Positions 33,501-38,675 of a DNA stretch of 64,000 bases are shown here, in pieces (position 1 is the first letter of the stretch; each line of letters opens with the position of its first letter). Source of the DNA: Cyanobium usitatum str. Tous. Its GTDB lineage: Bacteria; Cyanobacteriota; Cyanobacteriia; PCC-6307; Cyanobiaceae. The translations under genes were made by a program, and so were the position numbers. The notes under the pieces were generated by a model. It was not told where the DNA came from and did no database searches. It was given only the letters and a program-made list of their open reading frames with translations. The stretch lies in the NCBI RefSeq assembly GCF_963920485.1, contig NZ_OY986431.1:1922001-1986000 (forward strand), read 5' to 3'.

Positions 33501-33594
33501 AGGGCCGGTTTGTTGACGGGTGTGAAGAGTGCGGCAGAAGCCCCGATCCGGTCAAAAACACGGTGCTAGTTTCCGGCTGAAACGTTCCAAAGCC

Positions 33595-34026
33595 ATGGCA
33601 GCGACGGTGCTCAGCGGTCAACTCCCGAAGTACATCGGCAGCACCGGCGGCCTGCTGAACTCTGCTGAAACTGAAGAGAAATACGCCATTACCTGGAGCA
33701 GCCCGAAAGAGCAAGTCTTCGAGCTGCCCACCGGTGGCGCCGCCCACATGAATGCGGGCGAAAATCTGATGTACTTCGCCCGCAAGGAGCAGTGCCTCGC
33801 CCTAGGCACCCAGCTGCGCACCAAGTTCAAGCCCCGGATCGAGGACTACAAGATCTACCGCATCTTCCCTGGCGGTGACACCGAGTTCCTGCACCCCAAG
33901 GACGGCGTTTTCCCCGAGAAGGTCAACGAGGGACGCCCCATGGTTGGTCACAACCCCCGCCGCATCGGCGCCAACCAGAACCCCGCCAATCTCAAGTTCA
34001 CTGGCAAGAACACCTTCGACGCCTAA
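33595..34026 (+). CDS. psaD: Photosystem I subunit II
   Basis: PsaD docks ferredoxin on the stromal side of photosystem I and helps assemble PsaC. The 143-residue protein contains [37 protein letters not shown] in part, [33 protein letters not shown], and ends with [15 protein letters not shown] 33595 gives the standard cyanobacterial length; upstream frame to 33529 is noncoding leader. The 94 bases before it hold the promoter. Confidence 0.97.
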
Positions 34027-34083
34027 CTAGTCCCACTGATCAACGCACTCCTGCAACGCATCAAAATTGGCCGGGTAGGGCTC

Positions 34084-34944
34084 ATGCCTCCCCGGCCTTT
34101 GCATGGCAGACATGGCCTGGCGATCGCCTTGGTGGTGCGCAATGAGGAGCGTCACATCGGGGAATGGGCCCGCTTTCATCGGCTCGCCGGTGTGCGCCAC
34201 TTGTTCGCCTATGACGACGCCAGCAGCGACAGCACGGTGGCGGAGCTTAGGCGCCACATGCCAGCGGAGCGGCTCACCGTGATTCCGTGGGGACAGCGGC
34301 TAAGCGACCGCAGCCTCGGCCGCCCGATCCACAACCAGGTGCTGGCTTACGCCCATGCCGCCGCTAACTTCGGCGGTGCTTTCCGCTGGCTGGCCTGCAT
34401 TGACGCAGACGAGTTTTTGGTACCTGTCCAGGCAAGCAGCATCGACACAGCCCTGGAGCACCTAGGGCCCGAAGTAGTGAATGTGTCCCTGCCCTGGCAC
34501 ATGTTCGGCCGCTGCGGCCACCAGGATTCCCCTGCCGGGGGTGTGGTGACCAACTACCTGCAAAGAGCACGGAACCCTATGCAGGCGGTCAATTTCAAGT
34601 GCATTGTTGACCCTTGCCAGCTCAGGGGTGTGCGCGTTCACACCATGGACACCGGCCGACCCGCGCTCACCTGGAATGACCGTGGCGAGGCTTTCCCCGT
34701 AAAGCAACGGCACAAGTCTGTGTTCTATTCAGCCGAGCACCTGCAACTCAATCACTACTACACGCGCTCAAAGGAAGAGCTGGAGCAGAAAATTAGTCGC
34801 GGTCCCAACCTCGAGGCGAAGCGGCAGGATTATCGCCGCAAGGTGATGCGGACAGCAACCCGGATCGAAGCTCACATCCGGGAGGACCGGCAGGCGATCA
34901 ATTTCCTGGAGCGAGCGGCGGCTATGAACTCAGTTCAAAACTGA
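34084..34944 (+). CDS. Glycosyltransferase (family 92 / GT2-like)
   Basis: The 286-residue protein has ALVVRNEERHIGEWARFH, YDDASSDSTVAEL and the metal-binding WLACIDADEFLVP, plus LPWHMFGRCGHQDSP. These mark a GT-A fold transferase of the GT92/DUF23 type that extends surface polysaccharide. The C-terminus is basic and helical. It opens the accessory island between psaD and trpE and converges on the frameshifted sulfotransferase with a 10-base overlap, consistent with joint modification of a sulfated glycan. Confidence 0.85.
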   Translation: MPPRPLHGRHGLAIALVVRNEERHIGEWARFHRLAGVRHLFAYDDASSDSTVAELRRHMPAERLTVIPWGQRLSDRSLGRPIHNQVLAYAHAAANFGGAFRWLACIDADEFLVPVQASSIDTALEHLGPEVVNVSLPWHMFGRCGHQDSPAGGVVTNYLQRARNPMQAVNFKCIVDPCQLRGVRVHTMDTGRPALTWNDRGEAFPVKQRHKSVFYSAEHLQLNHYYTRSKEELEQKISRGPNLEAKRQDYRRKVMRTATRIEAHIREDRQAINFLERAAAMNSVQN

Positions 34945-35695
34945 TAACCGAACTGGTCGATCTCGGAAGCATAGAGGCGTCCAATTAGAACTTCTAGCTC
35001 TGGTGTGTAGTGGTTCCGGTATCCCCCGGGGGCACCAGCCGGTCGATGCCCTCCCTTGGAGCGGGGCAGCCAACCGTCCCAATCCAGCCCAGCATCCTGA
35101 AAAAATAACTGCAGATCCTGCTGGAGCTGCTCAAAGCGCACCACCCGATCAGCCACCACCTGATCGTTAATGGTGTACATCGGCCAGTTGTCGTGGAAGG
35201 CAAGGGGCACGATGCCGCCGAGGTCATGGCCAGCGGCCAAGGCCTCCACATAGGCGGCAAAACTGGGAGGAGTCCTTTGACGCTGAATGCGCCAGTAGTA
35301 GTCAGACACCGTTTTGTCCCAGGGGTTGCGAATGATCGCCAACTTGCGAAAGCTGGCCCACTCCTGCGGGAGGTCGCCGCAACGCAAGCAGCGGGGGCAT
35401 GGGGAGGCTTGCGGCCGAGCAGGGGCCTGTAGGCATGATCCACAGCGCGTGTGAGGGCTCGGCGATAGACACGGGGTCCGAGCAGGCGAAACAGGGGGAG
35501 CAGTCCGCGACTCTGACGCCAAGCGATGCGGCGCACCCGTTGGCTGAGCGGGATGCCCAGGGCCATGGTTTCGGCCAAGGCACTGATCTGCAGATCTTCA
35601 GGTCCAAGCAATCGGGCCAACGAGACACACAGCGAGCTGCCCGCCGCTTTGCGGCAGTGCAACACGATCAGCTGGTGGCGCTTACTAATAATCAT
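34935..35695 (-). pseudogene. Sulfotransferase broken by a frameshift
   Basis: Two minus-strand frames must be joined to give one sulfotransferase. The N-terminal part (from ATG 35695) holds LIVLHCRKAAGSSL, the 5'-phosphosulfate loop, and runs to KPPHAPA near 35395. The C-terminal part is in the next frame and continues LPQEWASFRKLAIIRNPWDKTVSDYYW in part, with the 3'-phosphate motif RNPWDK, to the stop at 34935. The switch lies near 35365-35400, where runs of five and four G occur in GGGGGCATGGGG. It may be a true inactivating indel, programmed slippage, or a sequence error. Confidence 0.75.
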
Positions 35696-35701
35696 CAGAC
35701 T

Positions 35702-36349
35702 TCAGCGCTGGGCCCGTGGGCGGTGGTGGGCCAACCAACTTTTGGCAGCTTGCAGCCAGGTAGGCAGTTGGCGGCCTCGGCTGCGGCCGATATCGCCGTA
35801 GTGCTCAGGGCGCAGGCCATAGGCGGGAAAGCGGGCGATCAAGGCCTCAATCGGATCACTATCAATGTTGAATTCCACCAGCTGCTCCGGCCGATCCCCC
35901 ATAAAGCTGCGTACCGCAGCCAGGTGGGCATCCCACTCAGCGCGCCAAGCATCCAACAGCTCTCTTTGGCTAACAAGTTTCCGCACCTTTTGTTCGCGCA
36001 TGGCAAACTCACCGTGGCCATGTAGCAAGCGAGATCTTATCCAATCCTCACGATCTCTGAAGTTGAGCAGCAAAATTGTATTGGGGTAGTCGCGCAGGAT
36101 TTCCCGAAACAAGCAATTGGCATCGAAGCTGCCGGTATAACTGCTATCAATCAGATCGCCGTAGAAAATAAATTGTTCTATTCCGGCGAATACGGGCATG
36201 CCTGCCTCGACATTGGCCCTCATGATGCCGCCAATCTTGCGGCGACGACGCAAGCGACTTGGCAACTTTTGGTGAACTGCGGGATGACCCGAGAGAGCGA
36301 ACAACTGGGAGATACTGCGAGTTGCACACTTATTGAAGCCGATTGCCAC
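35702..36349 (-). CDS. Sulfotransferase-family protein
   Basis: The 215-residue protein starts at GTG 36349 with MAIGFNKCATRSISQLFALSG in part, a phosphosulfate-binding loop of the G-x-N-K-C-x-T type. It continues FAGIEQFIFYGDL and ILLLNFRDREDWIRSR, which carries the 3'-phosphate region. This resembles the PF17784/PF13469 sulfotransferases. Its stop lies seven bases before the start of the frameshifted gene, so both form one transcription unit. A cell-surface polysaccharide or lipid is the likely target. Confidence 0.8.
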   Translation of the reverse strand: MAIGFNKCATRSISQLFALSGHPAVHQKLPSRLRRRRKIGGIMRANVEAGMPVFAGIEQFIFYGDLIDSSYTGSFDANCLFREILRDYPNTILLLNFRDREDWIRSRLLHGHGEFAMREQKVRKLVSQRELLDAWRAEWDAHLAAVRSFMGDRPEQLVEFNIDSDPIEALIARFPAYGLRPEHYGDIGRSRGRQLPTWLQAAKSWLAHHRPRAQR

Positions 36350-36504
36350 AACCCTTGGGAGAGATAGTGGCTGGATAACAAGCCCTGCCAGAATATTTCA
36401 GCAACTCCCTCAATAGTACTTGATATTTCTCGCAAGCACCAGCACAGTTTCTAGGATTGTCTTGCCCAATTGGCCGGAACCATGCCCGGGATGGGGCTAC
36501 TTAG

Positions 36505-37112
36505 ATCCAGCAGCCATATTGGCATCAGGCTATTTTCAAGCTTGATCCTCGGGGTGCCTATTCGCCGCTTGAGCCATTTTTTTACAACCGTGTACCTAAA
36601 GCGGCGAACACCTCCATAACCCAAACCTTCTTCACCCACAGTGCCTATAGCCCTCGACTGGCCCGACGTGATAATCCAAAATACAAGTTCCAAAGACCCA
36701 TCTTTCTCTCTATAAATCAAGCACACAAGCTCGAACACGAAGCTTTTAAATTCACTTTTGTACGCAATTCCTATAGCCGAGCTAGCCAGCCAGCTTTCTG
36801 GGATTTTGCCGCTATCTCGATTCAGGCGGACTTTTTTTGGACATGCACTGGGCTCCACAAGTAGAGATTCTTTGCTTACCACTCGAATGCTTTGATTTTA
36901 TTGGGCGAATAGAATCAATCGATCGAGATCTCAACCAAGTTCTACAGAGGGTCTTCAAGGTGCAATTGGAAAGCCCACTACCGCAAACAGGCCGACATCA
37001 CACACAAGCCAATCAAAAGCTCAAAGAGGCCTATGGGATGGAGGAACGGCAAATTGTTAATCGTCTCTATGTCACTGACTTCTTAAAGCTTGGCTACCCC
37101 CAAGACTTATAA
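36505..37112 (+). pseudogene. Degraded sulfotransferase remnant on the plus strand
   Basis: Reading the plus strand from 36505 gives AYSPLEPFFYNRVPKAANTS, a sulfotransferase 5'-phosphosulfate loop, and further FKFTFVRNSYSRA, the 3'-phosphate loop, in the same frame to about 36785. The protein then continues only in another frame with ASFLGFCRYLDSGG, DMHWAPQVE, FDFIGRIESI and a C-terminal LYVTDFLKLGYPQDL ending at TAA 37110-37112. The part normally between RNxYSR and the SFxxFCxYL block is missing, so an internal deletion caused the frame change. There is no proper start upstream (TAG 36502). The gene is broken. Confidence 0.75.
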
Positions 37113-37136
37113 AGGCTTCATCGCACCACAGGTTCG

Positions 37137-38675
37137 ATGTCCAAATCCGAGGATCAGGCCTTCCGCGACCAAGTGGCAGCCGGCCACAACTTCATCCCCC
37201 TCTGGAAGCGCTGGCCTGCTGATCTGGAAACCCCGCTCACCGCCTGGCTGAAGGCCGGAGCGGCCAGCAGTCATGGCGTGCTGCTGGAGTCTGTGGAGGG
37301 TGGTGAGCGCATCGGCCGCTGGAGCTTTGTGGTGTCTGATCCGCTCTGGACCCTCACCAGCCGCGGCGACCAAAGTGTGCGCCAATGGCGAACCGGCTCC
37401 GAGGAGCGGCTGCAGGGCAACCCCTTCGAGCTGCTGCGCCATTGCCTAGAGCCCCTATCCAGCCCGCCGATCCCCGGTCTGCCACCGGTGGGCCAGCTGT
37501 TTGGTTTCTGGGGCTACGAGCTGATCCGCTGGATCGAACCCAGCGTGCCGGTGCATCCGGCCGCCGAGGGTGCTCCTCCTGATGGCTGCTGGATGCTGGC
37601 CGACAGCCTGCTGGTGTTCGACCAGGTGAAGCGCCAGATCACCGCGGTGGCCTACGCCGATTTGAGTGGCGGCCAGGATCCGCAGGCTGCCTACGCCGCG
37701 GCCGCAGCCCGCATCCAGGCCCTGGAGAAGCGCATGCACGGCCCCCTGCCCGGAGCCGGCTCCCCCCTGAACTGGCACGACGCCACTGCCGCTGACATCG
37801 CTGCCAATTTGCGGACCACCAGCAACGTCGGACAGGAGGCCTTCGAGACCGCCGTGAGCCGCGGAGAAGGGCACATCGAAGCTGGCGACGTGTTCCAGCT
37901 GGTGCTCAGCCAGCGGCTGGAAACCCGCATCGATCGCGATCCCTTCGAGCTTTACCGCAGCCTGCGGATGGTGAATCCTTCGCCCTACATGGCGTTTTTC
38001 AACTTCGGCGGCTGGTATCTGATCGGCTCCAGTCCGGAGGTGATGGTGAAGGCAGAGCCCACGGCCGCAGGGGGAATTAAGGCTTCCTTGCGGCCAATCG
38101 CAGGCACGCGCCCCCGGGGCGCCGATGAGGCTGAAGACCTGGCTCTGGAGGCGGAGCTGCTGGCTGATCCCAAGGAGCGGGCCGAGCACGTGATGCTGGT
38201 GGATCTGGGCCGCAACGACCTGGGCCGCGTCTGCCAGCCGGGCACCGTCAAGGTGAGCGAGCTGATGGTGATCGAGCGCTACTCCCACGTGATGCACATC
38301 GTGAGCCAGGTGGAGGGTCTGCTGGCCGAGGGCCAAACGGTGTGGGACCTGCTGATGGCCTCCTTCCCCGCCGGTACGGTCAGTGGCGCTCCCAAGATTC
38401 GGGCTATGCAGCTGATCCACGCCCTGGAGCCCGACGCCCGAGGCCCATACTCCGGGGTGTACGGCGGGGTCGACCTGGCCGGCGCACTCAACACCGCCAT
38501 CACCATCCGCACGATGGTGGTGCTGCCCCACGCCGAAGGGGGCTGGCGCGTGCAGGTTCAAGCCGGCGCTGGAGTAGTAGCCGACTCCAAGCCCGAGCTC
38601 GAATACCAGGAAACCTTGAACAAAGCCCGCGGCATGCTCAAAGCCCTGGCCTGTCTGCTGCCGGCCCAGCCATGA
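37137..38675 (+). CDS. trpE: Anthranilate synthase component I
   Basis: TrpE converts chorismate to anthranilate with the glutaminase TrpG (not in the window). The 512-residue protein has the chorismate-binding signature blocks GDVFQLVLSQR, FYNFGG-type AFFNFGGWYLIGSSPEV, LRPIAGTRPRG, MLVDLGRNDLGR, SFPAGTVSGAPKIRAM and QAGAGVVADSKPELE. ATG 37139 region is just after the pseudogene; no leader peptide with Trp codons is visible in the 24-base gap. Its stop overlaps the gshA start (ATGA). Confidence 0.95.
   Translation: MSKSEDQAFRDQVAAGHNFIPLWKRWPADLETPLTAWLKAGAASSHGVLLESVEGGERIGRWSFVVSDPLWTLTSRGDQSVRQWRTGSEERLQGNPFELLRHCLEPLSSPPIPGLPPVGQLFGFWGYELIRWIEPSVPVHPAAEGAPPDGCWMLADSLLVFDQVKRQITAVAYADLSGGQDPQAAYAAAAARIQALEKRMHGPLPGAGSPLNWHDATAADIAANLRTTSNVGQEAFETAVSRGEGHIEAGDVFQLVLSQRLETRIDRDPFELYRSLRMVNPSPYMAFFNFGGWYLIGSSPEVMVKAEPTAAGGIKASLRPIAGTRPRGADEAEDLALEAELLADPKERAEHVMLVDLGRNDLGRVCQPGTVKVSELMVIERYSHVMHIVSQVEGLLAEGQTVWDLLMASFPAGTVSGAPKIRAMQLIHALEPDARGPYSGVYGGVDLAGALNTAITIRTMVVLPHAEGGWRVQVQAGAGVVADSKPELEYQETLNKARGMLKALACLLPAQP

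Follow-up and report, generated by a model that had tools for sequence, protein, structure and literature searches.

In the window, which is the whole stretch of 64,000 nucleotides analysed here, the region 36482–37112 of the plus strand is, judging by its alignment to an intact orthologue from Cyanobium usitatum Tous and by the Pfam matches of its fragments, a recently broken PF03567-type sulfotransferase gene, named ST2. With a probability of about 0.95, ST2 can be read as a recently inactivated gene for a PAPS-dependent sulfotransferase of the carbohydrate type, and as the accessory fourth gene of a cassette located between psaD and trpE. The ancestral enzyme would have transferred sulfate from PAPS to a sugar chain, which most likely belonged to an envelope polysaccharide or exopolysaccharide, and no working ST2 enzyme would be made now. 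The window genome (G000) is the complete genome of a picocyanobacterium and consists of one contig of 2.66 Mb.

The remnant consists of three pieces on the plus strand. The N-terminal piece (36482–36538) begins at the ancestral ATG, runs for 19 codons, and occupies a frame shared with neither of the other two pieces, and residues 4–37 of the intact query match positions 36464–36565 with 68% identity. The middle piece (36532–36783) carries both sulfate-donor motifs (VPKAANTS and FVRNSYSR) and is 89% identical to the intact protein. The C-terminal piece (36786–37112), which includes PASFLGFCRYLD, HWAPQ, DFIGRIESI, and KLGYPQDL and ends with a stop codon, is 98% identical to it. When fragments were compared alone with PF03567 (Sulfotransfer_2), the fragment with the donor motifs obtained 24.0 bits (E 5e-5, profile positions 9–93) and the C-terminal fragment 27.2 bits (E 5.1e-6, profile positions 156–252), so that each exceeds the curated cut-off of 22 bits. 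The sequence-only reading of this region as a degraded sulfotransferase on the plus strand is thereby borne out, as is its placement of the motifs, since VPKAANTS (from 36592) and FVRNSYSR share one frame (36505–36861) and HWAPQ, DFIGRIESI, and KLGYPQDL lie in another (36795–37109). Its statement that there is no valid start holds for the frame with the donor motifs but not for the gene, as position 36482 still carries the ATG of the orthologue, in a third frame, which retains the 19 ancestral codons up to a 46-bp deletion. Because this ATG survives there, the alignment places the gene start at about 36482 and not at 36505. As in other members of PF03567, both donor-site motifs, the HWxPQ block, and the C-terminal region can be recognized in ST2, but the fragments in the window cover only profile positions 9–93 and 156–252. 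A working sulfotransferase was expected to show one open frame with both donor motifs and HWxPQ; in ST2 the gene is spread over three frames. The region 36451–37112 is AT-rich, with 47% GC compared to 62% for the window; the C. usitatum copy has 49% GC and the ST2 orthologue in genome G283 has 68%.

An intact ST2 orthologue is present at the same locus in C. usitatum Tous (G012; NZ_PXXO01000009.1), which belongs to the same genus as the window strain. When 149 genomes were searched with the C-terminal fragment, four displayed a match, including the window genome itself; the best other match was that in G012, 98% identical and within an open frame of 320 codons, and the remaining two were 33–37% identical. 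The G012 locus contains a 308-codon open reading frame aligning across the entire ST2 region in a single frame, and its likely start is the ATG of MPGSG, which is shared with a 68% identical homologue and gives a protein of 250 residues. This intact protein matches PF03567 over its full length (82.6 bits, profile positions 9–252 of 252). Gene order and orientation are the same as in the window, and flanking proteins are 96.5–97.3% identical between the two strains. Alignment of both fragments to one intact homologue, which had been proposed earlier as a check, was thus obtained, and with a homologue at the same psaD–trpE site. Of 300 genomes sampled from the family, 44 matched intact ST2 at E 0.001; apart from the window genome only five of these exceeded 55% identity, all at the psaD–trpE site, and the rest did not exceed 36%. 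Searches of plasmid records gave ten distant matches from other bacteria (<60% identity), and among the matches listed five of eight fell under features named sulfotransferase family or sulfotransferase family 2 and three under none, while phage records gave no match at E 1e-5. A search of solved structures with the single protein returned two hits, both to a plant glycosyltransferase (E 0.045), a profile search of solved structures returned none at E 1, and NCBIfam named none of seven proteins. AlphaFold2 modelling of the intact protein from three sequences yielded a mean pLDDT of only 34.7 and no usable fold.

Gap-penalised alignment to the intact orthologue reveals two net losses in ST2, of 46 bp and 79 bp, each of which shifts the frame, and together they separate the start codon, the donor motifs, and the C-terminal half from each other. 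The 46-bp junction (36530–36539) lies between 36530 and 36531 as aligned, with a placement ambiguous by 8 bp, and is located upstream of the first donor motif. At this site the intact relative has two copies of an 8-bp repeat exactly 46 bp apart, one of which is retained in the window, and slippage between these direct repeats may have caused the loss. The 79-bp junction (36779–36785) lies between 36779 and 36780 as aligned and is followed by a stop, TAG at 36783–36785 in the downstream frame. This second deletion, ahead of HWAPQ, accounts for the segment that had been reported as missing between the motif-bearing part and the C-terminal half. It excises the block around VLSAYLDKVGR..HQG.RFL.WA, which is nearly unchanged in five aligned intact proteins, and leaves incomplete the RNPxSRVLSAY-and-following block, which we take to be the binder of the 3'-phosphate and whose lost part is highly conserved in intact homologues. 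The two deletions together remove or cut into 43 codons. Of these, 28 are invariant across four intact homologues, in which 127 of 250 codons are invariant overall. Six further invariant positions are altered in the window, one of them to a stop.

Two readings under which a product of ST2 would still be used were weighed against this record of lesions. That the strain possesses an intact gene and the lesions were introduced in sequencing or assembly is very improbable. The ST2 lesions are indeed seen in one genome only and may be specific to this strain, and the lesion in the neighbouring gene STa concerns one base, but base-calling errors do not typically remove 46 or 79 bp and one of the two losses is situated at a direct repeat. 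Moreover, long neighbouring genes such as those for TrpE (512 aa) and for PEP carboxylase (999 aa) have uninterrupted frames, and the deletions are accompanied by nonsynonymous changes, some of them at invariant residues. A slightly smaller chance still is given to the idea that the pieces remain in use and that a functional or regulatory product is made either from the C-terminal piece by itself (91 aa, starting at a TTG) or from the fragments jointly. The 98% identity of the C-terminal piece, with the same residue in 106 of 109 codons, would agree with such a use, as would the overlap of its end with an element before trpE, but this piece is devoid of both donor-binding motifs and the conserved block ahead of it is deleted. 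The polarised changes of the window lineage within it, five synonymous and three nonsynonymous, are too few to show either constraint or its absence.

It had also been noticed that a 143-codon open reading frame with a GTG start covers the remnant on the minus strand (36451–36882), and this frame is indeed present and uninterrupted. Of all readings considered, the one in which it is a real gene and the resemblance of the plus strand to sulfotransferases is fortuitous was judged the least probable, with hardly any weight left to it. Neither a Pfam nor an NCBIfam model matched the antisense frame, its counterpart in the intact relative is split across three different frames, and on the plus strand there are two above-threshold matches to PF03567 and an alignment to an intact gene; the antisense frame was therefore rejected as a gene. 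The observations by which the sulfotransferase assignment might have fallen, a plus strand resembling no sulfotransferase or a conserved minus-strand frame, were both looked for, with the results just given. The antisense strands of four other homologues showed a weak likeness (28–42% identity), which a conserved gene on the plus strand would yield. An annotation pipeline that favours the longest open reading frame could predict a spurious protein on the minus strand, on top of the dead sulfotransferase.

Pairwise dN/dS between the window strain and C. usitatum Tous is 0.12 for ST2, compared to 0.13 for trpE, 0.11 for GT92, 0.08 for psaD, 0.16 for STa, and 0.21 for ST4. As the ratio for ST2 is still as low as those of intact genes, most of its divergence must, on these estimates, predate the decay and have arisen under constraint, and the decay would be late. 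When changes were polarised with one outgroup, 14 synonymous and 13 nonsynonymous changes were assigned to the window lineage and 9 and 1, respectively, to the lineage of the relative (Fisher P 0.056). When three outgroups were used on an alignment at codon level and 16 unpolarised changes were left out, the window lineage showed 12 nonsynonymous and 8 synonymous changes and that of the relative 2 and 9 (Fisher P 0.057). These marginal differences may point to a recent relaxation of constraint on ST2 in the window strain. The proposal of a recent gene loss fits with the nonsynonymous excess, marginal as it is, and with the high identity of the flanking proteins.

The cassette has the gene order psaD – GT92 (+), STa (−), ST4 (−), ST2 (+) – trpE. 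On the left it is flanked by psaD (33592–34026, plus strand; PF02531 PsaD, E 3.6e-72) and on the right by trpE (37137–38675, plus strand; PF00425 and PF04715), which encodes anthranilate synthase component I. The first cassette gene (34084–34944, plus strand) is open and encodes a glycosyltransferase of 286 aa assigned by Pfam to GT92/Glyco_tranf_2_4, and the third, ST4 (35702–36349, minus strand), is open as well and encodes a protein of 215 aa matching PF17784 (Sulfotransfer_4). The second gene, STa (34935–35695, minus strand), is sulfotransferase-like but below the Pfam cut-offs, the intact protein reaching 16.7 bits with PF03567 where 22 are required. In the window a 1-bp deletion between 35372 and 35373 divides STa into two pieces in different frames, so two of the four cassette genes, ST2 and STa, are broken there; in nine of ten genomes STa is a single stop-free frame, and the single-base lesion could be a sequencing error. 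The description of the locus as part of a surface-modification island agrees with the presence of GT92 alongside three sulfotransferase or sulfotransferase-like genes, but the cell-surface role of the cassette and its substrate are inferred from family names. Eight of ten other open reading frames of the window were named by Pfam (phycobilisome linker, HEAT repeats, Mrp-type NTPase, FtsW/RodA, histidine kinase, PEP carboxylase, SMC-like protein, and pantoate ligase/cytidylate kinase), and the surroundings of the cassette are ordinary chromosomal ones. A scan of 33950–37200 revealed neither promoters nor terminators, whereas shuffled sequences gave more. Titles and abstract openings of the literature on Cyanobium, picocyanobacterial sulfotransferases, phage resistance, and psaD/trpE contained no description of the cassette.

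The distribution of the cassette was analysed with one genome per species. Within the genus of the window strain it was found in 2 of 16 genomes, the window genome and G012, and the other 14 have 100–125 nt between the psaD and trpE matches. In a second genus, GT92-STa-ST4 occupies the same place in the same order in 8 of 13 genomes and the interval is 116–146 nt long in the remaining 5; ST4 was matched in 12 of these 13 genomes, four times weakly (24–34% identity) and at another location. STa at E 1e-30 or better was detected in 10 of 400 genomes drawn from the family, all from the two genera and all at the psaD–trpE site. ST2 is less constant, occurring in four of the eight carriers of the second genus and in six of the ten carriers overall, in one of which it is broken. 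In the cassettes that lack it (G267, G246, G045, and G275), tblastn with four ST2 queries at E 1e-3 revealed no remnant in the gap between ST4 and trpE, the weak hits in these cassettes falling on STa, and no motif was seen by eye in the translated gaps. The cassette is dispensable, as most genomes of the genus do without it, and it is decaying in the window strain, where the neighbouring STa is frame-shifted in addition to ST2. Taken alone, ST2 is an ordinary pseudogene, and it is the patchy cassette that gives it some interest. The locus presents one cassette at one site as a series of present, empty, and decaying states in related picocyanobacteria, and this series could be used to ask what role sulfated surface sugars have.

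In a FastTree phylogeny of psaD and trpE from 28 of 29 genomes (all but G291), the window strain forms a group with G001 and G005, which have no cassette (supports 0.92 and 0.96), and G012 is placed just outside. Between the window strain and G012, dS is 0.12 for STa, 0.18 for ST4, and 0.26 for ST2, compared to 0.14 for trpE and 0.16 for psaD. Values in the range of the flanks or somewhat above fit descent of these three genes from one shared ancestral copy. For GT92 dS is 0.55, which does not fit one shared ancestral copy; as this is far above the 0.12–0.26 of the other three genes, it suggests that GT92 was replaced by recombination in one of the lineages. Loss of an ancestral copy from G001 and G005 by recombination with an empty allele and transfer of the cassette between close relatives both fit the data. 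Over the first 96 nt of trpE (37137–37232) the window is 83–84% identical to G001 and G005 and 90% identical to G012; beyond these it is 93–100% identical to G001 and G005 in nearly every stretch (90% at 576–671) and as close to them as to G012. This edge within trpE is likely a recombination edge. A wider speculation is that freshwater picocyanobacteria have a fixed exchange site in the psaD–trpE interval, at which a surface-sulfation cassette has been repeatedly gained, lost, and switched off by flank recombination and small deletions, perhaps as the sulfated sugar serves as a handle for phages or grazers, with the window representing a switch-off in progress; taken as a whole this seems rather unlikely.

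As to function, the genome of the window strain contains the APS kinase family, and the sulfate donor can therefore probably be made. A whole-genome search with PF03567 detected eight places. Two of these are the ST2 fragments and the other six, including one that scores just under the cut-off, are located at other loci, so sulfation by this family could continue even with ST2 lost. Export, polymerase, or flippase genes were not found between psaD and trpE, where the interval is filled by the four genes; by analogy, the cassette probably decorates a surface or released polysaccharide, one made elsewhere as the cassette is without export genes. The xss cluster for synechan of Synechocystis sp. 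PCC 6803 is, as outlined in PMC8205485, large and of the Wzx/Wzy type, and comprises eight glycosyltransferases together with two sulfotransferases. On gene content, by which alone the two were compared, the cassette resembles xss as outlined there in having sulfotransferases beside glycosyltransferases, GT92, STa, ST4, and ST2 lying side by side, but it differs in that it has a single glycosyltransferase along with three genes of sulfotransferase or sulfotransferase-like type and leaves no space for export genes.

Minor observations concern the two ends of the interval. The ST2 stop codon overlaps a TATAAAGGC element (37105–37120) before trpE, and the same nine bases precede trpE in 9 of the 10 carriers and at 14 of the 19 empty sites; the element is perhaps part of the trpE promoter. 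At the other end, a run of at least five T in a terminator-like hairpin no more than 140 nt 3' of psaD is present at 18 of the 19 empty sites and in 7 of the 10 carriers. The five-T run is absent from the window (34024–34090), G012, and G267, where a hairpin with only three T was seen by eye, and in these three psaD transcripts may read into GT92.
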